A stretch of DNA of 64,000 nucleotides from Phreatobacter stygius (GTDB lineage: Bacteria > Pseudomonadota > Alphaproteobacteria > Rhizobiales > Phreatobacteraceae), in NCBI RefSeq assembly GCF_005144885.1, contig NZ_CP039690.1, forward strand, positions 4,663,001-4,727,000, in the 5' to 3' direction. Positions within the stretch are counted from its first letter, which is position 1. Each line of letters starts with the position of its first letter. The position numbers and the translations under genes are program-made. The notes beneath the pieces were generated by a model. It had not been told where the DNA came from. It made no database searches and was given only the letters and a program-made list of their open reading frames with translations. Of the stretch, positions 10,563-60,487 are shown in pieces.

Positions 10563-10603
10563 GCCCTATCGTGCGAAGACCGGCATCGCCCCACGTCTCG
10601 GCG

Positions 10604-11431: not shown

Positions 11432-11517
11432 CGGCGTTCTCCCCTGACGATCACCTGATCATCGATCGATTGCCGCGGCTTCGCCAGCAGGCCGATCGGC
11501 GGTGTCCGGGGCCTAAA

Positions 11518-11548: not shown

Positions 11549-11584
11549 CTGAAGAGTGCGGTCGGGCCGGAGGGCCCGATCGGC

Positions 11585-43378: not shown

Positions 43379-43505
43379 CGACCGGCTCCGACATTAACCT
43401 TGCAGGGTTCCGTTTGGTCAGACAATTTATACCACAGGGATTAACCCGTAATTCTTGGAATTGCCGCTAGTTTTCACGATCGGGGTGTTGAAGGCGGCGG
43501 GCGAC

Positions 43506-46500
43506 GTGACTGATCAGATGATGGAGGCTTGCGACGACGGCCCTGGCAAGTCCGGGCGCGATCGACAGGAAAGCCTGCTCGCCCTGCACGAAACCGCGCT
43601 CGACGCGATCACTCATGGCCTCTGCGTCTTCGATGCCGCCTATCGGATCGCGCTGCACAATCGACGTTTCCTCGAGCTTTTCGGCCTGGCCGCGGCGGTG
43701 GTTCGTCCGGGCCTTGCCATGCGCGACCTGCTGAAACACAGCGCCGATCGCGGCAATTTCGTCGGCGTGGCCTTCGATGCCGTCTGGCAGGCCCGGTCCC
43801 AGCGCCTGGCTCGCGCCGAACCTTTCGACGACTGCCAGGCCCTCGCTGACGGCCGTATCATCGCCATCAGCTATCGTCCGACCACCGATGGCGGCTGGGT
43901 CGCGACCTATGCCGATGTCACCGCCCATCACCGCCTGGAGCAAGCCTACCGACTTCAGGTGATGCGCTTCGAACAGGCGCTCGGCAACATGGCGCATGGC
44001 CTTGCCATGTACGGTCCCGATGAGCGGCTGATCGTCTGCAACCGCCACTATATCGAGCATTTCGACCTCGATCCCGCGGTCGTGCAGCCGGGCGTCAGCC
44101 TTTACGACGTGCTGCAGCATTTCATCGACCGGGGCACCTATGTCGGGATGACCGGGCAGGAGCTCTATGACGAATCGCACCGCCGGCTGACCGAAGTCGG
44201 CCGCTGCGATTTCGTCCGGCCGCTCGCCGACGGGCGCTATCTGTCGATCCGCAACCGCCCGACGGCTGGCGGCGGCTGGGTCATCACCAGCGAGGACATC
44301 ACCGATCGCGAGCACGCCGCCGAAGAACTGCGTGAACAGCATCGCCGGTTCGATGCCGCCTTGAACAACATGTCGCAAGGCCTGTGCATGTTCGACGGCC
44401 AGCACCGCCTGACCGTCTGCAACGAACAATATATCAGCATGTTCAGGGCCGACCCGGCGGTCGTGAAGCCCGGCGTCAGCTTGCGCGGCGTGTTCGAGCA
44501 CGGCGTGGCGATCGGCATCTATCCAGGTGCCACGGCCGAGGAACTGGTCGAACGCCGGATGGCCGCCATGGCCGACCGCGTGACCAAGACCTATGACCAG
44601 AAAATGGCCGACGGCCGGCGGATCGAGATCACCATTTGCCCGCTGCCGGACGGCGGCTGGATCGGCACCTTCGAGGATGTCACCGATCTGCGCCAGGTCG
44701 AAGCCGAGCGGGCCATGGCCATTGCCGAGGTCCAGGAGCAGAACCTGCTGCTCGACGCAACACTGGACAGCATGGCACAGGGGCTTTGCGTGTTCGACCC
44801 GGACCTGCGGGTGGTCGTCCGCAACAAGCGCTATCTGGAGTTCTACGGACTGGATCCCGAGGCCTGCAAACCGGGCACGCCGCTGATCGACCTGATGCGC
44901 CTCAGCGTCGCGCGCGGCATCCACCTGCAGGGCTATGATGCCGATGCGGTGATGGCCGATTTCAAGGCCCGGCTCCTCGACAAGGGCGAGCCTATGCTGA
45001 CCCGTCGGCTTGCCGATGGTCGGGTCGTCGCGGTCCGGTCGCGACCGATGGCGAATGGCGGCTGGGTCACGACATTTGAGGACATTACCGAGCGCGAGCG
45101 TGCGGCCGAGGAGCTGAGCGAGCAATATCGGCGCTTCGATGCGGCGCTCAACAACATGGCCCACGGCCTGTGCATGCTCGACGAGCGCCTCAGCCTGATC
45201 GTCTGCAACCAGCGCTATCTCGACATGTACCGCCTGTCGCCCGACGTGGTCCGGCCCGGCGTCAGCATGCGCAAGATCGTCGAGCACAGCGTCGCCATCG
45301 GCAATTACCAGGACATGTCGGCGGACGACCTGCTCAAGGGTTATTTCGAGCGCCTGAGAGCCGGCAACTACGTTTCCCATCGTCAACTGGCCGACGGACG
45401 CATTTTCAAGGTCGTCTACGAGCCGATGGAGCATGGCGGCTGGGTCGCCACCCACGAGGACGTCACCGAGCGGCACAAGGCCGAGCAGCATATCGCCCAC
45501 ATGGCCCATCATGACGCGCTGACCGACCTGCCGAACCGCGTGCTGTTCCGCGACAAGATGGCCGAAGGCCTGACCGACGTGGAGCACGGTGGCGATCCGC
45601 TGGCGGTCTTCTGCCTCGACCTCGACCATTTCAAGAGTGTCAACGATACGCTCGGCCATCCCGTCGGTGACCGCCTGCTGCGCGCGGTCTCCGAGCGGTT
45701 GATGCTCGCGGTCGGGCCGCAGGGCACGATCGCGCGGCTCGGTGGCGACGAATTCGCCATCCTCATGCGGACGGCCCGGCCGCAGGACTCGGAGGCCCTG
45801 GCGCGTCGCCTGGTGGCGCTGATGGCCGAACCCTTCGTCATCGACGGCCAGGTGATCAATACCGGCTCGAGCATTGGCATCGCGGTCGCACCGCAGGACG
45901 GCACCGCCGCCGACCATTTGATGAAATGCGCCGATCTGGCGCTCTATCGGGCGAAATCCGAGGGCCGCGGCATGTTCCGCTTCTTCGAGCCGGACATGAG
46001 CGCGCGCATCCAGGCCCGGCGCGAGCTGGAACTCGACCTTCGCCAGGCGTTGGGCGCCGGCGAGTTCCATCTGGTGTTCCAGCCGCAGGTGCGCGCCGCA
46101 ACCGAAGTGCTGACCGGCTTCGAAACGTTGCTGCGCTGGACCCACCCTGCACGCGGCGCGGTCTCGCCGGCCGAATTCATTCCGCTGGCCGAGGAGACCG
46201 GCCTGATCCTGCCGATCGGCGAATGGGTCTTGCGCGGCGCCTGCATGGAGGCGGCGCGCTGGCCCGATCCGATCAAGGTGGCGGTCAATCTGTCGCCGGT
46301 CCAGTTCAAGAACCGCAGCCTGGTGGCCATGGTGGTGAACGCGCTGGCCGCCTCCGGCTTGCCGCCGCACCGGCTGGAGCTGGAAATCACCGAGGCCGTG
46401 CTGCTGCAGAAGGACGACGTTACCATCGCCATGCTGCATGAGCTCAGAGCGCTCGGCATCCGCATCTCGATGGACGATTTCGGCGTCGGCTATTCCTCGC

Positions 46501-46790
46501 TCAGCTATCTCCGCAGCTTTCCCTTCGACAAGATCAAGATCGACCGTTCCTTCATTGCCGATCTCGACCGCAACAAGGACAATGCCGCCATCGTCCGCGC
46601 CATGGCGGATCTGGGAACGAGCCTGCGCATCGAGACCACCGCCGAGGGTGTCGAGACGCCGGAACAGCTCGCCATCGTCCGCGCCTGCGGTTGCACCGAG
46701 ATCCAGGGCTATCTGATCAGCCCGCCGAAACCCGCGGCCGACGCGCTCGACCTGATCGCAAGGCTCTATCGCAAGGCCGTCGCGGCGTGA
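43506..46790 (+). CDS. Five-PAS GGDEF-EAL cyclic di-GMP signalling protein
   Basis: About 1094 residues from the GTG at 43506 (start uncertain: a GTG at 43485 and an ATG at 43518 are also in frame). Five tandem PAS_7 repeats of about 125 residues, each with an (N)MxxGLxxxD start, VCNxxY, PGxSL, LADGR, GGWV and EDITxR, occupy residues 20-670. A complete GGDEF domain (DALTDLPNRV, ARLGGDEF) and an EAL domain follow. In the latter the signature is FETLLRW, and NLSPVQF, ELEITE, DDFGVGYSSL, DKIKIDRSF, TTAEGVET and IQGYLIS are kept, so both synthesis and breakdown are chemically possible. No membrane span, so cytoplasmic. Confidence 0.95.
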   Translation: MTDQMMEACDDGPGKSGRDRQESLLALHETALDAITHGLCVFDAAYRIALHNRRFLELFGLAAAVVRPGLAMRDLLKHSADRGNFVGVAFDAVWQARSQRLARAEPFDDCQALADGRIIAISYRPTTDGGWVATYADVTAHHRLEQAYRLQVMRFEQALGNMAHGLAMYGPDERLIVCNRHYIEHFDLDPAVVQPGVSLYDVLQHFIDRGTYVGMTGQELYDESHRRLTEVGRCDFVRPLADGRYLSIRNRPTAGGGWVITSEDITDREHAAEELREQHRRFDAALNNMSQGLCMFDGQHRLTVCNEQYISMFRADPAVVKPGVSLRGVFEHGVAIGIYPGATAEELVERRMAAMADRVTKTYDQKMADGRRIEITICPLPDGGWIGTFEDVTDLRQVEAERAMAIAEVQEQNLLLDATLDSMAQGLCVFDPDLRVVVRNKRYLEFYGLDPEACKPGTPLIDLMRLSVARGIHLQGYDADAVMADFKARLLDKGEPMLTRRLADGRVVAVRSRPMANGGWVTTFEDITERERAAEELSEQYRRFDAALNNMAHGLCMLDERLSLIVCNQRYLDMYRLSPDVVRPGVSMRKIVEHSVAIGNYQDMSADDLLKGYFERLRAGNYVSHRQLADGRIFKVVYEPMEHGGWVATHEDVTERHKAEQHIAHMAHHDALTDLPNRVLFRDKMAEGLTDVEHGGDPLAVFCLDLDHFKSVNDTLGHPVGDRLLRAVSERLMLAVGPQGTIARLGGDEFAILMRTARPQDSEALARRLVALMAEPFVIDGQVINTGSSIGIAVAPQDGTAADHLMKCADLALYRAKSEGRGMFRFFEPDMSARIQARRELELDLRQALGAGEFHLVFQPQVRAATEVLTGFETLLRWTHPARGAVSPAEFIPLAEETGLILPIGEWVLRGACMEAARWPDPIKVAVNLSPVQFKNRSLVAMVVNALAASGLPPHRLELEITEAVLLQKDDVTIAMLHELRALGIRISMDDFGVGYSSLSYLRSFPFDKIKIDRSFIADLDRNKDNAAIVRAMADLGTSLRIETTAEGVETPEQLAIVRACGCTEIQGYLISPPKPAADALDLIARLYRKAVAA

Positions 46791-46918
46791 GCGGACGGCT
46801 GCTGCCGATCGGCAATATTCTCGACGCTCAGCGGCGTTTGGGCTAGCTTTGAGGGCTGGACAGGAGGGCGGCCCGCGCGTTCGGCCGCCGCCGGCCTGGG
46901 CCTTGGGACATTGCCGAT

Positions 46919-47398
46919 ATGAGTGTTGCCTTCACCAAAGAAAACGATCGTGACGGCGGCGAGGCGGAATTGCCGGACCGGCCGATCTCGCCCCACCCGA
47001 ACCTGGTGACGCCGAACGGGCTCGCCGCCCTGGACGCGGCGCTTGCCGCCGCGCGCGCCGCCGTTGTCGCGGCCCAGGCCAATGGCGAGGCCCCGGCCGA
47101 CGAGACGGCGCTGGCCCGCGCCAGCCGCGACCTGCGCTATTACGCCGCCCGGCGCAACAGCGCCCAACTGGTCGAGCCTCATCCGGAGACCGGCACCGTC
47201 GGTTTCGGCGGCAGCGTCACCTTCGATCGCGAGGACGGTCGCCGGCAGACTTTCCGGATCGTCGGTGAAGACGAGGCGGATCCCGCCAAGGGCACGATTT
47301 CCCATGTCTCGCCGATTGCCCGCGCCTTGATCGGCAAGCGTGTCGGTGACACCGCCATCGTCGGCGCCGGCGAGGTCGAAGTCGTCGCGATCGGCTAA
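46919..47398 (+). CDS. GreA/GreB-family transcription elongation factor-like protein
   Basis: A 159-residue protein with a Gre C-terminal domain: GTVGFGGSVTFDREDGRRQTFRIVGEDEADP, seen in pieces, then ISHVSPIARALIGKRVGDTAIV, the standard signature. The N-terminal coiled coil is short and Ala-rich, and the acidic tip pair that cleaves backtracked RNA is not evident, so it may bind RNA polymerase without classic cleavage stimulation. It is convergent with slyX. Confidence 0.85.
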   Translation: MSVAFTKENDRDGGEAELPDRPISPHPNLVTPNGLAALDAALAAARAAVVAAQANGEAPADETALARASRDLRYYAARRNSAQLVEPHPETGTVGFGGSVTFDREDGRRQTFRIVGEDEADPAKGTISHVSPIARALIGKRVGDTAIVGAGEVEVVAIG

Positions 47399-47414
47399 CA
47401 GCAGAACCAGCTGT

Positions 47415-47627
47415 TCAATAATGCGGCGGCGGCGGCTCCGGTGCGCCGCTGGCCCCGCTTCCGGCTTCGCGCACCCGGTCGGCCAGGTTGGCGATCTCGC
47501 GGGTGAGCCGGTCGATCTCCTTCCATTGCGCCGTGATCGTCCGGTTCAGGTCCTCGATGGTGTCGTCCTGATAGGCGATGCGCATTTCCAGCGTATCGAC
47601 GCGGCTCGTGAGGCTGGTGTCAGTCAT
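47415..47627 (-). CDS. slyX: SlyX family protein
   Basis: A 70-residue coiled-coil protein starting at MTDTSLTSRVDTLEM. The pattern RIAYQDDTIEDLNRTI is diagnostic of SlyX, and the tail APEPPPPHY is the usual Pro-rich C-terminus. Function unknown. The start overlaps the end of trhO by 8 bp. Confidence 0.9.
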   Translation of the reverse strand: MTDTSLTSRVDTLEMRIAYQDDTIEDLNRTITAQWKEIDRLTREIANLADRVREAGSGASGAPEPPPPHY

Positions 47628-48390
47628 CCGAGGTCTGAGCCCCTTCCAGTGCCGCGCCTGGCCCGCGCTCGGCGAGCCCATGGCCGAGCGCCACGCGCTC
47701 GTCGAAGACGAAACATTCACCGGTCCACCGGCTCTCGGCCGGGGCGATCTCTTCGAGATATTTCAAGATCCCGCCGCGCAGGTGATAGACCTCCTGGAAG
47801 CCTCGGGACAGCAGATAGGAGCTGGCTTTTTCGCAGCGTATGCCGCCGGTGCAGAACATCGCGACCTTGCGGTGCTTCGCCGGATCGAGTTCGCGCGCCA
47901 CGAAATCGCGGAACCCGCTGAACCGGCCGATCCGCGGGTCGACCGCGCCGTCGAAAGTGCCCATGGCGACCTCGAACTGGTTGCGCGTATCGATCACCAG
48001 GGTATCGGGGCAGCCGATCAGGCGGTTCCACCCGGTGGCGTCGACATAGGTGCCGGTTCGGCGGGCCGGGTCGGTCCCGATGTCGCCGAAGGTCACGATT
48101 TCCGGCTTCAGATGCACCTTCAGGCGCTTGAACGGCATGGCGGCAGCGGCCGAGAATTTCAGTTCGAGCCGGTCGAGACGACCGTCGAACAGCGGGCCTT
48201 CGCGCAGCGCGTCGATGAAGCCCTCGATCGCTTCGGCGGTGCCGGCGACAGTGCCGTTGATGCCCTCATGCGCAAGGATGATCGTGCCCTTCAGCCCGGA
48301 ATCGGCGCAGATCTCGCGGAGCGGCGCCAGCAACCCGCCGGCATCCGGCAGTGCGACGAACTGATAGAGGGCGGCCACGCGGAATGTCAT
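47620..48390 (-). CDS. trhO: tRNA uridine-34 hydroxylase, rhodanese-like (UPF0176)
   Basis: A 256-residue enzyme that makes 5-hydroxyuridine at position 34 of tRNA. An N-terminal acylphosphatase-like domain (GTIILAHEGINGTVAG) precedes the rhodanese domain with active-site Cys in MFCTGGIRCEKAS and VIDTRNQFEVAMG. Length and motifs match TrhO/YceA. It is followed by slyX with an 8-bp overlap, so both are in one transcript. Confidence 0.92.
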   Translation of the reverse strand: MTFRVAALYQFVALPDAGGLLAPLREICADSGLKGTIILAHEGINGTVAGTAEAIEGFIDALREGPLFDGRLDRLELKFSAAAAMPFKRLKVHLKPEIVTFGDIGTDPARRTGTYVDATGWNRLIGCPDTLVIDTRNQFEVAMGTFDGAVDPRIGRFSGFRDFVARELDPAKHRKVAMFCTGGIRCEKASSYLLSRGFQEVYHLRGGILKYLEEIAPAESRWTGECFVFDERVALGHGLAERGPGAALEGAQTSDD

Positions 48391-48481
48391 GGCGCTGGTC
48401 TATCAAGATGAGCGCCGGCGCGAAAGCCGGGCGCGCGGAGCACGACACACCAGCCCGCAGGCCAGGCGCCGGCGCCGCCGA

Positions 48482-48510
48482 TTGACAGCCTGGTTGTGCT
48501 GGCCTCAAAT
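48482..48510 (+). promoter_or_regulatory. Promoter of the protease-MBL cassette
   Basis: A consensus TTGACA at 48482-48487, a 17-bp spacer and TCAAAT at 48505-48510. Transcription would start near 48517 and give an 80-base leader that contains a GGCCC-TTTC-GGGCC hairpin (48553-48566). A perfect -35 with a weak -10 often marks an activator-dependent or moderately weak promoter. Confidence 0.55.
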
Positions 48511-48599
48511 CCGGCAACCAAGAGTTAGCGGCAGTGCGTGAAACGGATGGCTGGCCCTTTCGGGCCGGTCAGGCGCGGGTCTGACGAGTGGGGCGAGGC

Positions 48600-51500
48600 A
48601 TGGCGAACGCTGCCGCTGGTCCGCGATTCCTGGTCAAGGCCAAACCCGGCGCGCCTGGCGCCGCGCTTGCGGTCGACGGCGCTTCGGTCCGCTTCGACGC
48701 CCGGCCCTTGTTCGAGAGCATCGCGGTGCACGATGCCTTCGGCATGGCGGCGCCGACCGCCTGGCAGGTGCTGACCGCAACCGAAGCCGTCGACCTCAAT
48801 CCCTGGGACGCCTGCCATCGCCTGCTCAGCGAAGGCCTGGGGGTTGCCGGCGGCGAGGCCGTCGCTTTTGCCGAGCCGGATCTCGCCCAGCAATGGCCGG
48901 TGGGCGACGAAAAGGCGGCAGGCTTCCGGCTGGCCGCCGGCTGCGGCGCGCCCGATCGTCAGAAACCCGATTTTCCAACCGATCCGGATCCCTATTGGAT
49001 CCGCAACGAGCGGCACGGCCAATTCGACAGGGCCAATGACAAGGTGGGTGCGCCGACGCCCGCCGGCCGCGTGCGCATTGCCCATTTCGACACCGGCTAC
49101 GATCCCGCGCACCGGACCTTGCCTCGCCGGCTCAACCGCAATCTGCAGCGCAATTTCGTCGATGCCGAACGGCCGAACGACGCCTGCGAAGTCAGCTTCG
49201 GCGCCTTGTCCAATCCCGGCCACGGCACCGGCACGCTCGGCATCCTGGCTGGCGCCGCGCCAGGGCCCGGCCGGCCGCTCGGCTGCGCGCCGGAGGCCGA
49301 GGTGGTGCCGCTGCGGGTCGCCGACAGCGTCGTGCTGTTCTACAACAGCGCCATTGCGCGCGCCTTCGACTATGTCCACGGCCTGGCGGCGAAACCGGCG
49401 ACCCGCGTCGACATCATCACCATGAGCATGGGCGGCCTTGCCTCGCAGGCCTGGGCCGACGCGGTCAATGCGCTCTACGAACAGGGCGTTTTCATCGTCA
49501 CCGCCGCCGGCAACAATTTCGCCAACCTGCCGACCCGCCACATCGTCTATCCCGCGCGCTTCCACCGGGTCGTCGCGGCCTGCGGCATCATGGCCAACCA
49601 TCGGCCCTATGCCGATCTCGCGCCGAACCAGATGGCCGGCAATTATGGTCCGGACAGCAAGATGGAAACGGCGGTCTCGGCTTTTACGCCGAACACGCCC
49701 TGGGCGCGCATGGGCTGTCCCGGCATCGTCGACCTGGACGGCGCCGGCACGTCGTCGGCGACGCCGCAGGTGGCGGCCGCGGCGGCGCTCTGGCTGCAGG
49801 CAAACCGCGCCGCGGTCGCCGGTTACCCGCAGGGCTGGATGCGGGTCGAAGCGATCCGTCAGGCACTGTTCCGTTCGGCCTCGGGCGAGGCTGGCGACCG
49901 CCGCCGGCTCGGCCGGGGTGAATTGCGCGCGCTTGCGGCTCTCGGCATCGCGCCGCCCAAGGCCGCCACGCTCGTCAAGCAACCCCCGGACAGCGCCCGC
50001 TTTCCGTTTCTCGACACCTTGCTCGGCACCGATTTCGGCATTGCCTCGGATGCCGAGCGGCGCATGCTGGAACTGGAGGCGCTGCAATTGTCGCAGTCGG
50101 CCGCGGTCGAGGCCGTGCTGCCGGACGCGGCGGTGCCGCCGGACAAGCTGACCACCCGCGACCGGCGCAACCTCGCCGACGCGCTGATCGCGCAGCCCGG
50201 CATTTCGGCCAAGCTCAGCCGGGCGCTGCAGGCGGCAGGCCTTGCCACCCGGTCGTCGATCGCCGTCGCGGCGCCACCGAGCAAGGTCAAGACCTACCAG
50301 CTCGACCGGGCGATGAACCCGCCGGTCGCGACGCCGAACCGGCGGCGGTTGAAGGTCTTCGCGCTCGACCCGTCGCTCGGCACCAGCCTGGACACCGCGG
50401 CGATCAACGAGGCGGTGCTGGATATCCGCTGGGAGACCAACCTGAAGCCCGGCCCGGTCGGCGACTATGTCGAGGTGATCGACATCGACCCGTCGAGCCG
50501 CGCGGCCTACGCGCCGGTCGACCTCAATCACCCGCACCTCCTGCCACGCGACGGGCTGACGCCGGCCGAGGACAATCCGCAGTTCCACCAGCAGATGGTC
50601 TATGCGGTGGCGATGCGGACCATCGAGTTCTTCGAGCATGCGCTTGGCCGCAGCGCACTCTGGGCGCCGCGCCACACGCGTGATCAGGCCGGCCGGCGGC
50701 GCGACACCTATGTTCAGCGGCTGCGCATCTACCCTCACGCGATCCGCGCGGCCAACGCCTTCTACAGCCCGGATCGCAAGGCGCTGCTGCTCGGCTATTT
50801 CGCCGCCGACCATAGGGCGGCCGGCGAGGGCCTGCCCGGCGGCATGACCTTCAGTGCCCTGTCGCACGATGTCATCGCCCATGAGACCACCCACGCGCTG
50901 CTCGACGGCTTGCACCGGCGCTTCCGCGAGCCGACCAATCCCGATGTGCTCGCCTTCCACGAAGCCTTCGCCGACATCGTCGCCCTGTTCCAGCATTTCT
51001 CCATGCCCGAGGCGCTGCGCGACACGATCCGGACGACGCGCGGCGATCTCGGCAAGGAGAACCTGCTCGGCAAGCTCGCGGTCGAATTCGGCCAGGCGAT
51101 CGGCGGCGGTTATGGCGCGTTGCGCGATGCCATTGGCAGCCTGGATCCGCGAACCGGCGCCTGGGTGCCAGCCAAGCCGGCGCGCACCGACTATGATCCG
51201 GCCAAGGAAGCCCATGCCCTCGGCTCGGTGCTGGTCTCGGCGGTGTTCGCGGCCTTCCTGGCGATCTACAAGGCGCGCACCCGTGACCTGGTCCGCCTCG
51301 CCACCAATGGCAGCGGCGTGCTGCCGGAAGGCGACCTGCCGGAGGCGCTGGCCGGGCGGCTTGCCGAGGAGGCGAGCAAGGTGGCTGGCCAGGTGCTCAG
51401 CATGACCATCCGCGCGCTCGACTATTGTCCGCCTGTCGACATCACCTTCGGGGACTATCTGCGTGCCCTGATCACCGCCGACCGGGATCTCGTGCCCGAC

Positions 51501-52151
51501 GATCCGCGCGGCTATCGGGCCGCCTTCGTCGCGGCGTTCCGCGACCGCGGCATCTATCCGACCGGGGTTCGCCACCTGTCGCCGGGCAATCTGGTGTGGG
51601 AACCGCCGCCGCTGCCGCTGGCCAATCTTGCCGTCGTGCTGAAGCGGCTGAAACTCACCTGGAGCCTGACCGGCGATCGCCGGGAGGCCTTCGACACCGC
51701 GCGCGACAACGCGGCGATCGTCCATTCCTGGCTGACCTCGGCGAGCCAGGTCTCGGACGACGAGCTGGCTGCGCTCGGGCTCAGGCGCAAGGCGGAGGCC
51801 GTCACCATCAACGGCTTGAAGGGCAGGCGCGGCGGCATCGAGGTCCATTCGGTCCGCCCGGCGCGCCGGATCGGTCCCGACGGCCAGAGCCGGACCGACC
51901 TGGTGGTCGAGATCACCCAGACGTTCCGCAGCGAGCAGGCCGGGGTGATCTATCGCGGCGGCTGCACGTTGCTGATCGACCTGGAGGCGAACGAGGTGCG
52001 CTATTTCATTCGCAAGCGGCTCGACAGCCAGGCTTCGATCGAGCGCCAGACCCGCTATCGCCAGGCCGTGGCGGCGGATGAGAGCAACGCCTATTCCGAC
52101 AGTGCGGCTGCATCGCGCGAGCCCTTCGCGCTGTTGCACAGGCATCGCTAG
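48600..52151 (+). CDS. S8 subtilisin-like protease fused to a thermolysin-type (HExxH) metallopeptidase domain
   Basis: A 1183-residue protein, from the ATG at 48600 with GGGG just before (an in-frame GTG at 48588 is possible). Residues 1-105 look like a pro-domain (ending AFAEPDLAQQW). The subtilase domain has Asp164 (AHFDTGYD), His208 (NPGHGTGTL), oxyanion Asn305 (AAGNN) and Ser385 (GAGTSSATP). After a helical linker (about 430-560) comes a second peptidase domain with zinc motif His761-Glu762-x2-His765 (AHETTHALLDG) and downstream Glu788 in HEAFADIVALF, the gluzincin pattern. A C-terminal domain of about 330 residues is unassigned. No signal peptide or membrane span, so cytoplasmic action is inferred. 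Its stop overlaps the ribosome-binding site of the next gene. Confidence 0.9.
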   Translation: MANAAAGPRFLVKAKPGAPGAALAVDGASVRFDARPLFESIAVHDAFGMAAPTAWQVLTATEAVDLNPWDACHRLLSEGLGVAGGEAVAFAEPDLAQQWPVGDEKAAGFRLAAGCGAPDRQKPDFPTDPDPYWIRNERHGQFDRANDKVGAPTPAGRVRIAHFDTGYDPAHRTLPRRLNRNLQRNFVDAERPNDACEVSFGALSNPGHGTGTLGILAGAAPGPGRPLGCAPEAEVVPLRVADSVVLFYNSAIARAFDYVHGLAAKPATRVDIITMSMGGLASQAWADAVNALYEQGVFIVTAAGNNFANLPTRHIVYPARFHRVVAACGIMANHRPYADLAPNQMAGNYGPDSKMETAVSAFTPNTPWARMGCPGIVDLDGAGTSSATPQVAAAAALWLQANRAAVAGYPQGWMRVEAIRQALFRSASGEAGDRRRLGRGELRALAALGIAPPKAATLVKQPPDSARFPFLDTLLGTDFGIASDAERRMLELEALQLSQSAAVEAVLPDAAVPPDKLTTRDRRNLADALIAQPGISAKLSRALQAAGLATRSSIAVAAPPSKVKTYQLDRAMNPPVATPNRRRLKVFALDPSLGTSLDTAAINEAVLDIRWETNLKPGPVGDYVEVIDIDPSSRAAYAPVDLNHPHLLPRDGLTPAEDNPQFHQQMVYAVAMRTIEFFEHALGRSALWAPRHTRDQAGRRRDTYVQRLRIYPHAIRAANAFYSPDRKALLLGYFAADHRAAGEGLPGGMTFSALSHDVIAHETTHALLDGLHRRFREPTNPDVLAFHEAFADIVALFQHFSMPEALRDTIRTTRGDLGKENLLGKLAVEFGQAIGGGYGALRDAIGSLDPRTGAWVPAKPARTDYDPAKEAHALGSVLVSAVFAAFLAIYKARTRDLVRLATNGSGVLPEGDLPEALAGRLAEEASKVAGQVLSMTIRALDYCPPVDITFGDYLRALITADRDLVPDDPRGYRAAFVAAFRDRGIYPTGVRHLSPGNLVWEPPPLPLANLAVVLKRLKLTWSLTGDRREAFDTARDNAAIVHSWLTSASQVSDDELAALGLRRKAEAVTINGLKGRRGGIEVHSVRPARRIGPDGQSRTDLVVEITQTFRSEQAGVIYRGGCTLLIDLEANEVRYFIRKRLDSQASIERQTRYRQAVAADESNAYSDSAAASREPFALLHRHR

Positions 52152-52162
52152 GGGATACCGAC

Positions 52163-53608
52163 ATGGCGCGCAGACCGCGAAGTGCCGGACCCCTCAAGGC
52201 GGCGAAGCCAAAGGCGAAACCAACCGCCGCGTCGACCGCCGGCCAGCGCAAGCCGGCGCCGGCGGCCGTCAGCGCCAAAACCGGCGGGCGGGCCAAGACC
52301 GGCGCGCGCGGTAAAAATGCCGGGCGCGCAAAAATCCGCATGTACCGCCAGGGCCTCGGCGACTGTTTCCTGATTTCGCTCAGCCGCGCGAGCGGCAAGC
52401 CCTATCGCATCATGATCGATTGCGGTGTCATTCTCGGCACCCCGGACAGCAGCGCGATCATGACCGCGGTGGTCGAGGATATCGCCCGCGAGACCGGCGG
52501 CACGATCGACCTCCTGCTGGCGACCCACCAGCACTGGGATCACCTGTCCGGGTTCGTCCAGGCGACCGAAGCCCTGAAGAAACTGACCTTCAAGAAGGTC
52601 TGGCTCGCCTGGACCGAAGACCCGGCCGATCAATTGGCGCGCGAGCTGGCCGGAGAACGCGACACCGCGCTGAGGAGCCTGAGGCTGAGCGCCGGCGCCA
52701 TGCGCCTGGCCGGCGGCGCGGATGAGGCCGACGAGATCGACGCGCTCATCGGTTTCTTCGGTGCGGCCGGCGGCGCCTCCACCGAAGACGCCTTGAACGT
52801 GGTCAAGGCGCTCGGTCCGATCCGCTATTGCCGGCCGTCCGATCCGCCGGTGCAACTCGCCGATCCCGACGCCCGGCTCTACGTGCTGGGGCCGCCGCAC
52901 GACCGCAAGCTCATTCGCAAGACCTTGCCGTCGACGCGCGAGCCCGAGACCTATGGCGTCAGCGCCAACGCATTCGGGGCCAATGTGCTGGCGGCGCTCG
53001 ATGGCACCGACGACGCCGCGCCCTTCGGCCCGAACCGCGCCATCCCCCTCGAAATTGCCCGCGGCATGGATTTCTTCCGCGCCCATTACTGGGGCCCGGG
53101 CGAGGCCGCGCCGGACTGGCGGCGGATCGACACGGCCTGGCTCGACGGCGCGTCGGAACTGGCGCTGGCGCTCGACAGCGCCACCAACAATACCAGCCTG
53201 GTGCTGGCCATCGAATTCGCCGATGGCGACGTCCTGCTGTTCGTCGCCGATGCCCAGGTCGGCAACTGGCTGTCCTGGGAAACGCTCGACTGGACCGTCG
53301 ACGGCCGCAAGGTGACCGCCTGGGACCTGCTGCGCCGCGCCATCGTCTACAAGGTCGGCCACCACGGCAGCCACAATGCGACGCTCAAGGCCAAGGGTCT
53401 CGACCTGATGGAACGCCTGCGCTTCGCGATGATCCCGGTCGATCATGCCATGGCGGTCAAGAAGCGCTGGGGCAACATGCCCTTGCCGGAACTGGTCGCG
53501 GCGCTTGGCGAGAAGGCGCGCGACGGCGTCCTGCGTCTTGACGAGACCCCGGCAAAGCCGCCGGCCAATGTCGTGGTCGACAAGCTCTATTTCGAGATTT
53601 CGGTCTGA
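52163..53608 (+). CDS. ComEC/Rec2-like metallo-beta-lactamase-fold protein with basic tail
   Basis: A 481-residue protein. Residues 1-59 are almost only Ala, Lys, Arg, Pro, Gly and Thr, like a histone H1 tail, suggesting DNA or RNA binding. The fold then opens with YRQGLGDCFLISL, zinc ligands His122, His124, Asp126, His127 (THQHWDHLSG), Asp363 (VADAQ) and the ComEC-type KVGHHGSHN (His400, His401). No membrane part of ComEC is present. The gene begins 11 bp after the protease gene with AGGGGA overlapping the protease stop, so the two form an operon. Nuclease or other hydrolase action is an inference from the fold. Confidence 0.9.
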   Translation: MARRPRSAGPLKAAKPKAKPTAASTAGQRKPAPAAVSAKTGGRAKTGARGKNAGRAKIRMYRQGLGDCFLISLSRASGKPYRIMIDCGVILGTPDSSAIMTAVVEDIARETGGTIDLLLATHQHWDHLSGFVQATEALKKLTFKKVWLAWTEDPADQLARELAGERDTALRSLRLSAGAMRLAGGADEADEIDALIGFFGAAGGASTEDALNVVKALGPIRYCRPSDPPVQLADPDARLYVLGPPHDRKLIRKTLPSTREPETYGVSANAFGANVLAALDGTDDAAPFGPNRAIPLEIARGMDFFRAHYWGPGEAAPDWRRIDTAWLDGASELALALDSATNNTSLVLAIEFADGDVLLFVADAQVGNWLSWETLDWTVDGRKVTAWDLLRRAIVYKVGHHGSHNATLKAKGLDLMERLRFAMIPVDHAMAVKKRWGNMPLPELVAALGEKARDGVLRLDETPAKPPANVVVDKLYFEISV

Positions 53609-53642
53609 ATCCGGGCGCCGGGACGACCGCCTGACATGGCGA

Positions 53643-53669
53643 GCTCCCGGACGGTTTCCCGCCGGGAGC
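53643..53669. terminator. Hairpin shared by the MBL gene and RNase P RNA
   Basis: GCTCCCGG (53643-53650) pairs with CCGGGAGC (53662-53669), with an inner CGG/CCG pair. It lies 34 bp after the MBL stop on the plus strand and just beyond the RNase P RNA 3' end on the minus strand, so it could stop both. Confidence 0.65.
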
Positions 53670-53673
53670 CCTC

Positions 53674-54073
53674 ATCATCAGTCGGCCTGTAAGCCGGGTT
53701 TTGTGGGGCGGGATCGCTCCCGCGCGACGGCCATTCCTCTAGGACGCCCATTGCTGGACGCCTCTGGCAACCTACCCGGACGGCGACGCGGATCCACGCC
53801 TTGGGTCTCCCCGGTGGGGCGCCCCATGCCGTCCCTATTCGGTTTTGCTCCCGGTGGGGTTTGCCGTGCCGCTTCCGTTGCCGGTCGCGCGGTGGGCTCT
53901 TACCCCACCGTTTCACCCTTGCCGGAGCATGCTCCGGCGGTCTGTTCTCTGTGGCACTTTCCCTGGGGTCGCCCCCGCCGGACGTTATCCGGCACCGTGT
54001 TTCCGTGGAGCCCGGACTTTCCTCCCCCGCGCCCTTTCGGGTGATGCGGCGGCGGCCGTCCGGCCGGCTGACC
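53674..54073 (-). ncRNA. rnpB: RNase P RNA, bacterial class A
   Basis: The catalytic RNA that matures tRNA 5' ends. On the minus strand the universal core GAGGAAAGTCCGGGCTCC is near 54024-54007, the ACAGAGAACAGACC-type region follows, AGGGTGAAACGGTGGGGTAA is the P10-P11 conserved segment, and the 3' end reads AACCCGGCTTACAGGCC then GACTGATG. The 5' GGTCAGCCGGCC can pair with GGCCGACTGA at the 3' end as helix P1. Ends are estimated to within several bases. About 400 nt, normal length. Confidence 0.95.
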
Positions 54074-54078
54074 GGCCT

Positions 54079-54107
54079 CAAGTGCGTCAGCGGGCGCGGG
54101 GTGTCAA
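54079..54107 (-). promoter_or_regulatory. Promoter of rnpB
   Basis: On the minus strand a consensus TTGACA (54107-54102), 17-bp spacer, and CACTTG (54084-54079) as a weak -10. The expected start, near 54072, coincides with the 5' strand of helix P1. Confidence 0.55.
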
Positions 54108-54133
54108 GCGTTGCGGTCGGCTGCCGGTCGAGA

Positions 54134-54367
54134 TCAACGCTCCGGTGGCGGGTGGCCTGGAGGCGCGCCGCTGATCGTCTCGGCCGAGGTCGCGGCGATC
54201 GGGTCGCTCGCCGGGAAGGTATTCTCGAGCGCCAGGCTCAGGTCGGCATCTTCGATCGGATCGGCTTGTCTGCGCGGCATGACCGGCCCCGGGCCGGCAA
54301 TCGCCCGTTCGAACTCACGGGTTCCTTCGGTCTGCAGGTCCAGCGCCTTTTTCGCCACGGAATCCAT
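54134..54367 (-). CDS. Small protein with FPASDP motif
   Basis: A 77-residue acidic protein ending in a Pro-rich tail. The core DADLSLALENTFPASDPIA contains the FPASDP word found at the end of many small alphaproteobacterial proteins of unknown function. It lies just upstream of rnpB on the same strand, with the rnpB promoter following its stop. Function unknown. Confidence 0.65.
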   Translation of the reverse strand: MDSVAKKALDLQTEGTREFERAIAGPGPVMPRRQADPIEDADLSLALENTFPASDPIAATSAETISGAPPGHPPPER

Positions 54368-54517
54368 GGGTGGTCTCCTCAGCCGACAGGGTCATCCTCC
54401 CATGTGGGGACGAGCGATGCCCGGCGCCAGCTCCGGTCCGTCTGGAGCGGGCGGTCCGGCTCTGCTAAGGGTCGGGCGAAATCGCTGGTCCCCGGTGTCC
54501 CGAACCTTGGGTGTCTC

Positions 54518-55864
54518 ATGCCGTCGCCGCTGCTCGCGCCCCTGTTCGGTTCCACCGCCATGGAGGCTGTATTCTCCGATCGCGAAACGATCGCCGCGAT
54601 GCTCCGTTTCGAGGCGGCGCTGGCCGCCGTCGAGGCTGAGGCCGGCGTCATTCCCAAGGCGGCGGTGACGTCGATCGCCAAGGCCTGCGCCGGAGGGCCG
54701 ATCGACCCGGCGGCCTTGGCTGCTGCCGCCGGGGTCGCCGGCAATACCGCCATTCCGCTGGTCAAGATGCTGACAGCCAAGGTTGCGGCCGCCGATGCCG
54801 AAGCGGCCAAATGGGTCCATTACGGTGCGACCAGCCAGGATGTCATGGATAGCGGGCTGGTGCTCCAGCTCAAAGCCGCCTTCGATGTGCTGGACGCCGA
54901 TCTTGCCCGCGCCGCCAAGGCGGCCGCCCGGCTCGCCCGGATCTACCGCGACACGCCGATGGCCGGGCGGACCTGGCTGCAGCAGGCCCTGCCGATCACC
55001 TTCGGCCTGAAGATGGCCGGGGTGCTGGACGCGCTGATGCGTCACCGGGAGCGTTTGGGCGAGGCGCGCCCGCGCGTTCTGGTGCTGCAGCTCGGCGGTG
55101 CCGCCGGCACGCTGGCCTCGCTCGGCGACAAGGGACCGGAGGTTGCCGACCGGCTGGCCACGGCCCTGGGCCTGGCCTTTGCCGACACGCCCTGGCACGG
55201 CCATCGCGACCGCATCCTGGAGGCGGCGGCCTTGTTCGCCGGTATCGCGGTCACCTGCGGCAAGCTGGCCCGCGACGTGGCGCTGTTGATGCAGACCGAG
55301 GTCGGCGAGGTCATGGAACCGGCGGCGCCCGGGCGCGGCGGTTCTTCCACCATGCCGCACAAGCGCAATCCCATGCTGTCGGCGACCATTCTGGGGGCGG
55401 CCAATCTGGCGCCGCAACTGCTGGCGGCGGTGGCCGCGGGCGGAGCCGGCGAGCATGAGCGCTTCACCGGCGGCTGGCAGGCGGAATGGCTGGCGCTGCC
55501 GGAACTCGCGCGCCTCGCCGGCGGCGCGCTGCATCGCGCAGCCGAACTCCTGGAAGGCCTGGAGGTCAGGCCCGAGCGCATGCGCGCCAATCTTGGCCTG
55601 ACCGATGGGTTGCTGATGGCCGAGGCGGTGCAGATGGCGCTGGCGCCGGCGCTCGGCCGGCTTGCCGCCCATGACCTGATCGAGGCCGCCTGTCGCAAGG
55701 CCGTGGCCGAGGGCAGGGGGCTGCTCGATGTCCTGGCCGAGGACAGCGTGATTGCCGGGGCAGCGTCGCGCGACGAACTTGCCGGCCTGCTCGATCCCGC
55801 GCGCTATCTCGGCGCGGCGGGGGAATTCGTCGACCGGGTGCTGGCGCGCTACGCCGGGATGTGA
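54518..55864 (+). CDS. pcaB: 3-carboxy-cis,cis-muconate cycloisomerase
   Basis: A 448-residue member of the fumarase/aspartase superfamily that acts in the protocatechuate branch of the beta-ketoadipate pathway. Signatures are HYGATSQDVMDSGLVLQ and GRGGSSTMPHKRNP, with GEHERFTGGWQAEW specific to PcaB-like enzymes. The start at MPSPLLAPLFGST is the family N-terminus; a longer frame crosses rnpB and is not coding. No other pca genes are nearby, so related adenylosuccinate-lyase-like activity cannot be excluded. Confidence 0.9.
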   Translation: MPSPLLAPLFGSTAMEAVFSDRETIAAMLRFEAALAAVEAEAGVIPKAAVTSIAKACAGGPIDPAALAAAAGVAGNTAIPLVKMLTAKVAAADAEAAKWVHYGATSQDVMDSGLVLQLKAAFDVLDADLARAAKAAARLARIYRDTPMAGRTWLQQALPITFGLKMAGVLDALMRHRERLGEARPRVLVLQLGGAAGTLASLGDKGPEVADRLATALGLAFADTPWHGHRDRILEAAALFAGIAVTCGKLARDVALLMQTEVGEVMEPAAPGRGGSSTMPHKRNPMLSATILGAANLAPQLLAAVAAGGAGEHERFTGGWQAEWLALPELARLAGGALHRAAELLEGLEVRPERMRANLGLTDGLLMAEAVQMALAPALGRLAAHDLIEAACRKAVAEGRGLLDVLAEDSVIAGAASRDELAGLLDPARYLGAAGEFVDRVLARYAGM

Positions 55865-55933
55865 GCCATCCCGCGCGAGACGGCGTGACGGGCACGGCCA
55901 TCACGCGCTGTGCAGTTAGGGATCGTCGCAGCC

Positions 55934-57451
55934 TCAGCCGCCGTAGAGGCCCTTATAGGCGTCGCGCAGCAGGTTTTTCTGCACCTTGCCCATGGTGTTG
56001 CGCGGCAGGTCGTCGACCACGATGACCCGTTTCGGCAGCTTGTAGCGCGCGAGCCGCTGTTCCAGCGACTTGATGATCGTGGCCTCGTCGAGCGTCGCAC
56101 CCTTCTCACCCACCACGATTGCCGTGACGCCCTCGCCGAAATCGGGATGCGGCACGCCGATCACCGCACTCTCGACCACGCCCGGCATGCCGTCGATCTC
56201 GGTCTCGACCTCTTTCGGATAGACGTTGTAGCCGCCCGAAATCACCAGGTCCTTGCCACGTCCGACGATATGGACATAACCGCGATCGTCGATCTTGCCG
56301 AGATCGCCGGTGATGAAGAAACCGTCGGCCCGGAATTCCGCCGCGGTCTTTTCCGGCATGCGCCAATAGCCCGAGAAGACGTTCGGGCCCTTGACCTCGA
56401 TGACGCCGATCTCGCCCTGGGCGATCGGCGCGCCGGTCTCGGGATCGGCAACCCTGAGCGACACTCCCGGCAGCGGAAAGCCGACCGTGCCGGCGACCCG
56501 GTCGCCGTCATAGGGGTTCGAGGTGTTCATATTGGTTTCGGTCATGCCGTAGCGCTCGAGGATCGCAACCCCGGTCTTCTCGCGGAACAGCTTGTGGGTT
56601 TCGGCCAGCAGCGGCGCCGAGCCGGAAATGAACAGCCGCATGTGCCGCGTCGCCTCGCGGGTCAGGCGCTGGTCCTGTACCAGGCGGACATAGAAGGTTG
56701 GCACGCCCATCATGGTGGTGGCCCGCGGCATGAGTTCGAACACCTTGTCGGCATCGAATTTCGGCAGGAACAGCATGCTGGCGCCAGCCACCAGGATGGT
56801 GTTGGTGGCGACGAACAGGCCATGGGTGTGGAAGATCGGCAGGGCGTGCAGCAGAACGTCGTCGGCGGTGAACCGCCAGTAGTCCTTCAGCGTCAGGGCA
56901 TTGGAGGCGAGATTGTCGTGGCTCAGCATGGCGCCCTTGGAGCGCCCGGTGGTGCCTGACGTGTAGAGAATGGCGGCGAGATCGTCCGGCCCACGCGCCA
57001 CGTCGTCGAACGCCTCCGAGGCGGTGGCCGCCTTGTCGAACAGGCTGCCGTCCATGCCTTTGCCGAGCGTCTCGACAGCAGGCACGCCGGTCGTTTTCGC
57101 GACCTCGGCGATGCCGTCGCGGCGCGTCGGGTCGCAAACCACCAGAGCCGGCTCGGCATCTCCGAGGAAGTACGCGATCTCGGTCAGCGTATAGGCGGTG
57201 TTGAGCGGCAGGAACACCGCGCCGGCGCGCACGCAGGCGAGATAGAGGAAGATCGCAGCGGCGGATTTCTCGACCTGCACCGCCACCCGATCGCCCGGCT
57301 TGACGCCGAGCCCGACCAGCACATTGGCGTAGCGCGCCGTGCCGGTCATCAGGTTGTCGTAGCTGAGCTTCAGCCCGGCTTCGGTCTCGATGAAGGTTTT
57401 GGTCAGGTCCGTCGCATTGGCGCGGACGAGGTCGAACAGGTGATTGGCCAT
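55934..57451 (-). CDS. matB: Malonyl-CoA synthetase
   Basis: A 505-residue AMP-forming acyl-CoA ligase. Motifs in order: YTSGTTGRSKGA for ATP, the A5 region ERYGMTETNMNTSNPYDGDR, which with the Arg is typical of MatB, ITGDLGKIDDRGYVHIVGR, and the catalytic Lys in RNTMGKVQKN. It turns malonate into malonyl-CoA, used for assimilation or fatty acid synthesis. No malonate transporter or decarboxylase lies adjacent. Convergent with pcaB. Confidence 0.92.
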   Translation of the reverse strand: MANHLFDLVRANATDLTKTFIETEAGLKLSYDNLMTGTARYANVLVGLGVKPGDRVAVQVEKSAAAIFLYLACVRAGAVFLPLNTAYTLTEIAYFLGDAEPALVVCDPTRRDGIAEVAKTTGVPAVETLGKGMDGSLFDKAATASEAFDDVARGPDDLAAILYTSGTTGRSKGAMLSHDNLASNALTLKDYWRFTADDVLLHALPIFHTHGLFVATNTILVAGASMLFLPKFDADKVFELMPRATTMMGVPTFYVRLVQDQRLTREATRHMRLFISGSAPLLAETHKLFREKTGVAILERYGMTETNMNTSNPYDGDRVAGTVGFPLPGVSLRVADPETGAPIAQGEIGVIEVKGPNVFSGYWRMPEKTAAEFRADGFFITGDLGKIDDRGYVHIVGRGKDLVISGGYNVYPKEVETEIDGMPGVVESAVIGVPHPDFGEGVTAIVVGEKGATLDEATIIKSLEQRLARYKLPKRVIVVDDLPRNTMGKVQKNLLRDAYKGLYGG

Positions 57452-57524
57452 GGCGATCTAAGCGAGGGGTGGCATGGAAAGGGCCGGACCATGCCGCATT
57501 CGAGCGGCGAGGTCGAGGGCCGCT

Positions 57525-59729
57525 TCACGCCGGCCTGGCGATCGGCTCGCTCAGATGGGCCGGACGGATCATCACCCGCACCTGCGTGCCGATGCCCGGC
57601 TTGGAGCGGATCGTGAAGGTTCCACCATAGAGATCGACCAGCTTCTTGACCAGCGCGAGGCCTAGTCCGGCCGGCTCTTCGTCCGCGCCATAGATCCGCT
57701 CGGCCAGCGGATCGAGGGCGGCCGCGATGGCGCCCGGACTGATGCCGGCGCCGGAATCGACCACGTCCAGGATCAATTGGCCGTCACCGCCACGCTGCGC
57801 CGACAGGCTGACCAGTCCGCCGCTCCCGGTCCGGTCGATGGCATTGCCGACCAGTTCGCCCATGATCCGGCGCAGTGCCGTGGCGCTCGCCGCCATGCCG
57901 CTGATTTCCGGCCCCCAGACGACGCGCAGCTTGAGCCGCTTGGCGTCGGCGCGCGGCCGGTAGATCATGTTGATCTCGGCGATCAGTTTCTCGACTGCCA
58001 TCCGATCGGTGGCCGGCGGCGTCTCGAACGTCGAAACCTCGGCATAGTCGATGACGTCGGCGAGCCTGCGGGCAAGCCTTGCCGATTCCTCCCGGGCCGC
58101 CTCGATCAGCGCATCGATATCGGCCGGCTCGCGGGTCGCCTCGGCCCGCTTGGCCATGGCATGCAGCCGCTCGATCGGCGCACGGAACGTCCGGCCGACC
58201 AGCTTGACGAGGCCGATGCGCAGGGATTTCAGGCCCTGGACGGTGACCAGCGAGCGGGCGAGCTGGTCGGTCAGCAGCGCCACCTCGCGCGCCGCCTCCT
58301 CCAGCTTCTCGTCGCGCTGCGCGAGATCCGCCTGCAGCCTGGCAAAGGCGGCACTGGTCTCGTCGATCACCGCCTCGGCCTGGCTCAATTCGGTCTTCAC
58401 GCCGGTGATCTGGGCGCGGAAAATGTCGACCGCGCGGTTATATTCACGCGCCACCTGGCCGATCTCGCCATCGCCGTCGGCGTCGAGATAGGCGAAACTG
58501 CTGGAATGGCGGTTGACCGCGCTCATCTGGCCGACCAGCAAGGCGACGTCGGTGGTCATGCCATGTTCGGCGACGTTCAGCCCGATCCGCTCCTGGTCGG
58601 CATCGACCCTGAGCTTCAGGATCATCCGGCCGCCGGCCAGCGCCAGCGTCATCATGCCGGAGGCGAAGCCGGCAATGGCCAGCACGCCGAGCGCCTGGAC
58701 GGCCAACAGCATGAATGGCGCCTCACCGCTGGTCGTGGCCAGGGCCAGCGTGCCGAGCGCGCCGGCAAACAGATGCACCGAGGCCATGCCGAGCGCATCG
58801 TCGATCTTCAGCGCCTCGACCAGCCGCGCTCCGACCAGCGCCGCAAGCGCCCCGGCGGTTCCGATGGCGACGGCGCCGGCCGGGCTGAACAATTGCGCGC
58901 CGGCGCCGGCCGCGATCACGCCGGCGAGCGCCGCGTGCACCAGGTGAATGACCGTGACCTCGGCCGGGCGAAGCTGGTTCAGCACGAAGACGGCGGCGAT
59001 GCCGGCAGCGCCGGCCAGCACCAGGTTGAGCACCACCGGCGCCAGCGGCACGCCCGCCGCCATGGTCTGGCCGGCGGCGATGCCGAACCAGCCGAGCCAG
59101 AGCAGCAGGACGCCGAGCGCCGCGAAGGGGAAACTCTGGCTCTGGATCACCGGCAGGCGCCGGACCCCGTCGAACCGGCCGCTGCGCGGGCCGATCATCC
59201 AGGCGGCGGCAAGGGCGGCCGCGCCGCCGGTTACATGGATCACCGCGCCGCCGGCCAGGTCGATGAAACCGATGGCCTTCAGCCAGCCGGCGCCGTCGGC
59301 GGAGACCGCCCAGGCCCAGTGCACGACCGGCGGAAGGATCACGGCGGTGAAGACCGCGACCGCCAGGGCATAACCGCGCAGGGTCGTGCGCTCGGCCAGC
59401 GGACCGGACAGGATGGTCGCCGCGCCGGCGGCCAGCGCGATGTGGAACAGCAGAATTGGCCCGGCAGCCTCGGCGCCGGGCAGGAACGGCCCGTGGCCGA
59501 TCAGGCGATGGCCATCGCCGGTCGCCATCAGACCTTCGCCGATGGCCCAGATGATCAACACGCTGAGTCCGGCCTGGACCAGGGCCTTGGCAGCGGCATT
59601 GACGCTGTGCTTGGCGCGCACCAGGCCGCTTTCCAGTGTCACCTGGCCGGCCAGCACCAGGAAGGCGCAGAGCGTCGCCGCGACCAGCCAGGCGTCGTTG
59701 GCATGCTGAACGTCCATCGAGCTGCCCAA
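57525..59729 (-). CDS. Ammonium transporter fused to a histidine-kinase-like module without the phospho-acceptor His
   Basis: A 734-residue fusion. Residues 1-395 are an Amt channel of eleven helices with Asp157 and the twin pore His165 (GGAVIHVTGG) and His319 (MASVHLFAG), and WFGIAAG. The Amt tail ends RIGLNVAEHG. Residues 410-440 look HAMP-like (DGEIGQVAREYNRA), 440-495 coiled coil, 500-565 DHp-like. Where kinases read SHELRTP this protein reads GRTFRAP, so the His is Arg513. The ATPase domain is intact: N box Asn629, Asp658 in VDSGAGIS and GLGLALVKK. It may sense ammonium flux and act on a partner rather than self-phosphorylate. Confidence 0.9.
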   Translation of the reverse strand: MGSSMDVQHANDAWLVAATLCAFLVLAGQVTLESGLVRAKHSVNAAAKALVQAGLSVLIIWAIGEGLMATGDGHRLIGHGPFLPGAEAAGPILLFHIALAAGAATILSGPLAERTTLRGYALAVAVFTAVILPPVVHWAWAVSADGAGWLKAIGFIDLAGGAVIHVTGGAAALAAAWMIGPRSGRFDGVRRLPVIQSQSFPFAALGVLLLWLGWFGIAAGQTMAAGVPLAPVVLNLVLAGAAGIAAVFVLNQLRPAEVTVIHLVHAALAGVIAAGAGAQLFSPAGAVAIGTAGALAALVGARLVEALKIDDALGMASVHLFAGALGTLALATTSGEAPFMLLAVQALGVLAIAGFASGMMTLALAGGRMILKLRVDADQERIGLNVAEHGMTTDVALLVGQMSAVNRHSSSFAYLDADGDGEIGQVAREYNRAVDIFRAQITGVKTELSQAEAVIDETSAAFARLQADLAQRDEKLEEAAREVALLTDQLARSLVTVQGLKSLRIGLVKLVGRTFRAPIERLHAMAKRAEATREPADIDALIEAAREESARLARRLADVIDYAEVSTFETPPATDRMAVEKLIAEINMIYRPRADAKRLKLRVVWGPEISGMAASATALRRIMGELVGNAIDRTGSGGLVSLSAQRGGDGQLILDVVDSGAGISPGAIAAALDPLAERIYGADEEPAGLGLALVKKLVDLYGGTFTIRSKPGIGTQVRVMIRPAHLSEPIARPA

Positions 59730-59771
59730 TGAGCCAAAGCGGTGCGTGCCGGCGATCTTGGATTGCCGTGG

Positions 59772-59786
59772 TTAACGCTACGTTAG
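59772..59786. promoter_or_regulatory. CtrA-like paired site
   Basis: TTAA-N7-TTAG at 59772-59786, inside an imperfect palindrome GGTTAACG-CTA-CGTTAGCC. It is 43-57 bp upstream of the Amt-kinase start. CtrA consensus in alphaproteobacteria is TTAA-N7-TTAA, so one base differs. Confidence 0.4.
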
Positions 59787-59818
59787 CCAAACGGAAAACA
59801 GTGAGGCGTGGAGCGCAT

Positions 59819-60361: not shown

Positions 60362-60487
60362 GGCGGTCCATTGGTGGATCCAGGACACTCCTTTCACCTT
60401 TCGTTCACCATGCCTCTCGACCGGGCGTTAATCAACGTCTGCAACATTTCGATAAGTGTTGTGTCGCGTCTGGAGAGGTCCGCTCGG

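Follow-up and report, generated by a model that had tools for sequence, protein, structure and literature searches.

Several metallo-beta-lactamase (MBL) proteins, HamM, Avs1a and CanC, are pro-nucleases in which insertions block the active site until a neighbouring protease frees it (Tuck et al. 2025, PMC12799240). The partner protease in these cases is a trypsin or a caspase, the caspase acting with CanC, and further MBL homologues adjoin "other diverse families" of proteases (PMC12799240). The combination of a protease with a gated MBL nuclease, in modular form and in a defence context, is already known. Here, a related arrangement is described from Phreatobacter stygius (contig NZ_CP039690.1, positions 4,663,001 to 4,727,000 of the forward strand); this whole stretch of 64,000 nucleotides is referred to as the window. 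Between trhO and rnpB lies a cassette of 5.2 kb (48434-53635 of the window), which holds just two genes and their promoter region. The first gene encodes P0001, a fusion of an S8 subtilase and a gluzincin protease, and the second encodes P0002, a ComEC-like MBL protein. The reading proposed here, in which our confidence is evenly balanced, is that they constitute a proteolysis-triggered, horizontally acquired and self-contained conflict system, most likely anti-phage and acting by suicide or growth arrest.

Comparison with Described Systems

The cassette resembles the HamM/HamA, Avs1a/Avs1b and Canu pairs (PMC12799240) in that a ComEC-type MBL protein, carrying an insertion close to its active site, is encoded beside a protease gene, and in that the modules are exchanged horizontally. 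In Canu, the nuclease gene is also located downstream of the protease gene. The differences are in the protease, which is here a thermolysin-type gluzincin accompanied by S8 and neither a trypsin nor a caspase, and in the gene content, as no HamB helicase, STAND NTPase or CanB is found. P0002 also scores far below the cut-offs of the Avs1a and 6A-MBL families. Gluzincin is not named in the main text of PMC12799240. The combination of gluzincin, MBL, patatin and subtilase was not found in the open-licence literature searched, which does not include the supplement of PMC12799240, so that an earlier notice is possible. The same literature gave no match for this class of protease, for its fusion to S8 or for an exchange of partners around a gluzincin core.

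The nearest named families of P0002, by profile matches, are the Avs1a, LmuA-type and 6A-MBL proteins. The PADLOC profile for the LmuA-type MBL is matched by all 33 aligned MBL proteins (33/33), that for RTasMBL by 29, and that for Avs1a by 21. With the NCBIfam profiles, Avs1a is matched by 30 and 6A-MBL by 27 of the 33. In P0002 itself, the N-terminal part matches the Avs1a profile with the E-value 2.6e-9. The comparison with AVAST that an earlier note on this DNA had drawn was thus a good lead.

The cassette shares with AVAST type I (Avs1) the presence of an MBL and a protease in one operon, but the STAND NTPase Avs1c and the trypsin-like protease are absent, and S8 and gluzincin are present instead. 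Neither P0001 nor P0002 matches any STAND or NTPase family. Membership in AVAST type I was rejected on the score of P0002 (36 bits against the curated Avs1a cut-off of 420), the presence of two genes only, and the lack of a trypsin-type protease. Lamassu with an MBL-type LmuA was likewise rejected on score and gene content; the MBL profile is matched, while the SMC-type LmuB is absent from the cassette. DRT systems with RTasMBL share the MBL profile, but no reverse transcriptase is found here. Among the multi-peptidase conflict operons, System 3 is similar in coupling several peptidases, including S8, to an endonuclease in one operon (PMC7159879). System 3 consists of trypsin/S8 and a NucA nuclease without a gluzincin, whereas here the MBL stands in for NucA. 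The EAD adaptors of the systems in PMC7159879 have no Pfam match in the cassette.

The Gluzincin and the MBL Protein Constitute the Conserved Unit

With profiles of the gluzincin and the MBL, 65 loci with a strong gluzincin were assembled. They originate from Alpha- and Betaproteobacteria, Acidobacteriota, Bacteroidota (Hymenobacter), Deinococcota, Planctomycetota, one cyanobacterium and Bathyarchaeota. The MBL gene is positioned directly 3' of the gluzincin in 55 of the 65, including three loci (L031, L087 and L143) in which the two open reading frames overlap. The MBL served as the query for nine of the 65, so the MBL-adjacent fraction is slightly lower among the loci found with the gluzincin. 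Ten loci have no adjoining MBL gene, and one of these (L139) stops at a contig edge. Wherever a strong MBL match was found in relatives, the gluzincin was present. Homologues of the two genes that normally stand apart were sought, and none were found. The gluzincin and MBL pairwise distances are strongly correlated (Mantel r 0.91; 45 pairs; 0/5000 permutations), which fits coevolution and also simple joint transfer.

The conserved core is the gluzincin and the MBL, and S8 is optional. The earlier note had taken the dual-protease fusion as the unit, and this has to be revised; its view of a single, patchily distributed unit is borne out, the pair being spread horizontally, often carried on plasmids and sometimes placed within defence islands. 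The pair is far from universal: it is clearly present in 2 of 12 congeneric genomes, with differing partners at differing sites, in 7 of the 398 genomes of a Pseudomonadota sample (about 2%, E < 1e-40), and in 18 of the 297 genomes of an Acidobacteriota sample (6%).

Some copies are irregular. In the Bathyarchaeota genome of L036, one locus (L134) has two tandem gluzincin genes without a recognized MBL, and a third copy elsewhere has one. Split gluzincin or MBL frames are seen in L030, L034, L035, L062, L127, L131, L150 and L070; in L070, an IS630-type transposase sits between the two genes. These are decay or draft errors, in keeping with a gene that carries a cost. Among the IMG/VR viral contigs, the search for relatives of the full pair found none. 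Four of these contigs (L089-L092) encode distant thermolysin-type zincins of 536-554 residues without an MBL neighbour, and an unannotated "phage" scaffold (L076) carries the pair.

The S8-Gluzincin Fusion Protein P0001

P0001 (48600-52151, plus strand) is a protein of 1183 residues composed of a prodomain, an S8 subtilase, a helical linker and a gluzincin. The start codon is assigned to the ATG at 48600, and the GTG at 48588 is an alternative in-frame start. The reading frames of both P0001 and P0002 are intact and strongly coding, with a third-position GC content of 0.865 in each. The S8 domain (residues 158-440; 49071-49919, plus strand) matches PF00082 with the E-value 7e-22 and 78.5 bits against a cut-off of 21.8. 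The triad D164, H208 and S385 and the oxyanion residue N305 are kept in all 16 fusions, apart from one gap at the D. The region preceding this domain (residues ~8-97, ending with FAEPDLAQQW; 48621-48890, plus strand) is probably an autoinhibitory subtilase propeptide, judging from the sequence pattern and from beta-alpha-beta elements predicted in a low-confidence model. A structure model of the full-length protein was discarded, as its mean pLDDT was 46 and its Foldseek matches were meaningless.

The gluzincin domain (residues 576-1183; 50325-52148, plus strand) was delimited by the alignment of homologues and contains a thermolysin-type HExxH and ExxxD. The zinc site (50880-50975, plus strand) is formed by HETTH at residues 761-765 and HEAFAD at residues 787-792, and its residues are invariant in 58 of 58 gluzincin homologues. 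The fusion described in the earlier note is thus real in both of its halves. The domain is similar to the peptidases M4 and M36 (thermolysin and fungalysin) in having the ExxxD 23 residues after the HExxH, in the M4 layout of the zinc site. It differs from them in its size of ~600 residues, its own C-terminal beta region and its cytosolic nature without a signal peptide, and it stays below the Pfam thresholds for both families (best E-value 0.002, seen in 2 of 31 gluzincin members). Neither a Pfam match nor a PADLOC model match was obtained for the domain. It represents a new family with the thermolysin arrangement and marginal similarity to M4/M36. An N-terminal hydrophobic segment is absent from both proteins (maximum 19-residue hydropathy 0.73 in P0001 and -0.17 in P0002), in agreement with the earlier note's claim of no signal peptide, and both are predicted to be cytosolic without an export signal.

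The ComEC-Like MBL Protein P0002

P0002 (481 residues; 52163-53608, plus strand) was identified as a ComEC-like MBL protein by profile and fold searches, both of which rank the ComEC beta-lactamase-like domain (9ic4) first; the earlier note had also called it ComEC-like. Its ribosome-binding site AGGGGA (52150-52155, plus strand) overlaps the protease stop codon TAG (52149-52151) and precedes the ATG at 52163, as described earlier. The metal motif HxHxDH (residues 122-127; 52526-52543, plus strand) is completed by D363 and H400, and all these residues are invariant across the family alignment. The N-terminal tail (residues 1-55; 52163-52327, plus strand) is predicted to be disordered and is rich in Lys/Arg, with 15 K/R and no D/E, a feature absent from the earlier note. 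The composition of the tail resembles that of a DNA binder and may reflect such a function, and the tail is found in only some relatives.

An insertion (residues ~160-340; 52640-53182, plus strand) separates HxHxDH from D363. The spacing from H127 to D363 is 236 residues in P0002 and 205-297 in the family, compared with ~97 in ComEC 9ic4. The insertion makes P0002 ~140 residues longer than ComEC at a place comparable to that in the gated pro-nucleases. In the structure model, two low-confidence stretches (residues 256-261 and 279-327) hold the conserved residues P256/E262/Y264 and P287-F288, respectively, and P287 is conserved in 32 of the 33 aligned MBL proteins. These stretches are candidate gates in the model, and their low confidence may come from the shallow alignment of six sequences. 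P0002 is a probable gated pro-nuclease.

An Exchangeable Third Module

S8 is fused to the gluzincin in 16 loci, and the gluzincin is unfused in the others. Patatin is a neighbour gene in 14 loci. Further partners are DUF2235, PLD (in Bradyrhizobium), an LCAT/PGAP1-type lipase, and astacin or M43 metalloproteases. An SMC-like ATPase is located upstream of the gluzincin and MBL in two Hymenobacter relatives only. The P. stygius genome has a second, very divergent pair (L084; G000:C1:6648001-6668000, 8250-12522, minus strand), in which a gene for an LCAT/PGAP1-type lipase, 12 bp upstream, takes the place of S8; a gene of 450 residues with a weak MBL-type match lies upstream of the lipase gene. 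In three loci without an MBL (L077, L147 and L149), a protein of 936-995 residues composed of an N-acetylmuramoyl-alanine amidase and a caspase (C14) is encoded directly or closely upstream. This sister architecture, seen in the Acidobacteriota sample and in a cyanobacterium, suggests a general activating role for the gluzincin.

On the gluzincin tree, the distribution of S8 requires 4 changes, of which at least 2 are forced, and that of patatin 6, of which at least 5 are forced. S8 is a swappable module that was acquired on at least two occasions. Exchange of one part around a constant core is also seen in anti-viral suicide systems. The S8 fusions of Acidobacteriota fall among those of proteobacteria, which indicates transfer of the fusion between phyla. 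In no locus are S8 and patatin both present (P 0.024, uncorrected for relatedness).

Patatin, PLD and DUF2235 are membrane-damaging families and known effectors. If the third module is the killer, the gluzincin and MBL would be the sensing and regulating core of a defence system: the substrate of the MBL would be a nucleotide signal or a nucleic-acid trigger instead of cellular DNA, and the gluzincin would free an executioner zymogen. The variability of the third module, its mutual exclusion between S8 and patatin, and the apparent propeptide of S8 are in line with this possibility. Many loci, however, have no recognizable third partner, and the window copy has S8 alone; the closest MBL relatives (Avs1a) act as effectors (PMC12799240), and the ComEC-type fold points to DNA hydrolysis. 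Killing by the third module is considered unlikely.

Genomic Context and Horizontal Spread

Many copies are plasmid-borne, and 22 of the 44 plasmid records are conjugative. A Hachiman-like DUF1837 gene and a DEAD helicase gene are found beside the plasmid copies L037 and L066, a CBASS cyclase beside L066 and L067, SIR2 proteins beside L061, and ThiF/Mov34 genes beside L064, L069 and L071. A PADLOC scan of 118 neighbours of 18 chromosomal copies recovered a CBASS cyclase and effector, a type I methyltransferase and an LmuA-type MBL. In 20 control regions of the same genomes (112 genes), the 25 best families listed do not comprise any of these classes. Because the counts are small, the enrichment of defence genes around chromosomal copies is suggestive only; the proximity to defence genes raised in the earlier note is seen for Hachiman, CBASS and SIR2 beside some copies, and its chromosomal part stays at that level.

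Peptidoglycan-active or -binding genes are near the copies L041, L062, L068 and L076, and the first three share a protein family of 285-301 residues without an assigned name. DUF2235 and PLD are also lipase families of type VI secretion systems (T6SS). Together with the peptidoglycan amidase, GH25, cell-wall hydrolase and peptidoglycan-binding genes beside some copies, they would fit an inter-bacterial or envelope-attack module with a function linked to secretion or lysis, in which the toxins would be lipases, amidases and glycoside hydrolases that the proteases and the MBL process or release. Such a function is very improbable, as the annotations of the loci read include no T6SS, secretion or immunity gene, export signals are absent from P0001 and P0002, and the kin of the MBL are defence nucleases.

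In the nearest sequenced relative (G003), the cassette is missing as a block. The sequences flanking it in the window, 43413-48433 (84%) and 53636-62093 (86%), are contiguous in blastn in one G003 locus (L171) with ~33 nt between them, and the gap between trhO and rnpB is 113 bp. The segment 48434-53635 is therefore an insertion here or was lost in G003. In the remaining congeneric genomes, trhO and rnpB are separated from each other. No integrase, transposase or target-site duplication was found at the cassette ends, where the repeat search gave only chance-like matches, and the GC content is host-like.

The location between core genes, the host-like GC content and the lack of a visible mobile element at the ends are what is expected of a housekeeping or stress proteolysis operon, in which two cytosolic proteases, aided by an accessory phosphodiesterase, would clear damaged proteins or nucleic acid. 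The absence from most close relatives and, as a block, from the nearest one, the spread over phyla and plasmids, the turnover of partners, and the several split copies (L030, L034, L035, L062, L131 and L150) make such a role improbable.

Proposed Mechanism

We infer that the gluzincin is the activator and P0002 a gated DNase from the kinship of the MBL, the mechanism described in PMC12799240, and the insertion of P0002 with its conserved residues. On a cue of infection, the gluzincin of P0001, as the conserved activating protease, would cut the insertion of P0002, which is presumed to shield its active site. The cleaved P0002, a putative ComEC-type MBL pro-nuclease, would then degrade DNA. The subtilase with its own propeptide may be an amplifier, in a zymogen cascade, or a second executioner, and S8 would fill the slot held elsewhere by patatin, PLD, DUF2235 or other hydrolases. 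The defence role, the trigger and the order of these events are likewise conditional. For the self-cleaving toxin that the earlier note had suggested, no evidence was found.

Several observations weigh against this proposal. No sensor domain was recognized in P0001 or P0002. The score of P0002 is far below the thresholds of the defence families, and its gating loops depend on a model built from the six-sequence alignment with pLDDT 67. The pairing and the agreement of the trees are explicable by joint inheritance of any operon, and three S8-gluzincin fusions of the Acidobacteriota sample (L137, L138 and L140) have no adjoining MBL gene. The window copy is solitary and flanked by housekeeping genes, and the defence enrichment around chromosomal copies is at most suggestive.

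A wider interpretation is that these loci represent a widespread, undescribed proteolytic immune family, in which a new cytosolic thermolysin-like protease controls a gated MBL nuclease and the second output is exchanged among subtilase, lipases, metalloproteases and caspase-amidases, the subtilase, gluzincin and nuclease being a bacterial zymogen cascade. This is put forward tentatively, as a possibility that falls short of being probable. If true, the proteolytic activation of gated MBL nucleases would extend beyond trypsin and caspase to a third, unrelated protease class. It would do so in archaea as well as in several phyla of bacteria, and a second effector would be plugged in. A testable role would also be given to a nameless protease family annotated mostly as "hypothetical protein", and the two-gene system can be directly cloned and assayed.

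Other Features of the Locus

The upstream neighbour of the cassette is trhO (47620-48390, minus strand), and the downstream neighbour is rnpB, the RNase P RNA of bacterial class A (53674-54071, minus strand; 287.9 bits). The earlier note had assigned a promoter and a terminator to the cassette. A weak candidate promoter, TTGACA and TCAAAT separated by 17 nt (48482-48510, plus strand), is plausible from the sequence. A consensus promoter scan of the cassette region reported nothing, and it missed this pair because position 2 of the -10 element is not A. The hairpin taken as the terminator (53643-53669, minus strand) is situated at the 3' end of rnpB and is kept next to rnpB in G003, which has no cassette; it is therefore the rnpB terminator, at most shared with the cassette. 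Farther upstream, at 43455-46790 of the window, a protein of 1111 residues has ~5 PAS-like repeats ahead of GGDEF and EAL domains and, judging from its sequence, is probably a tandemly expanded c-di-GMP enzyme.

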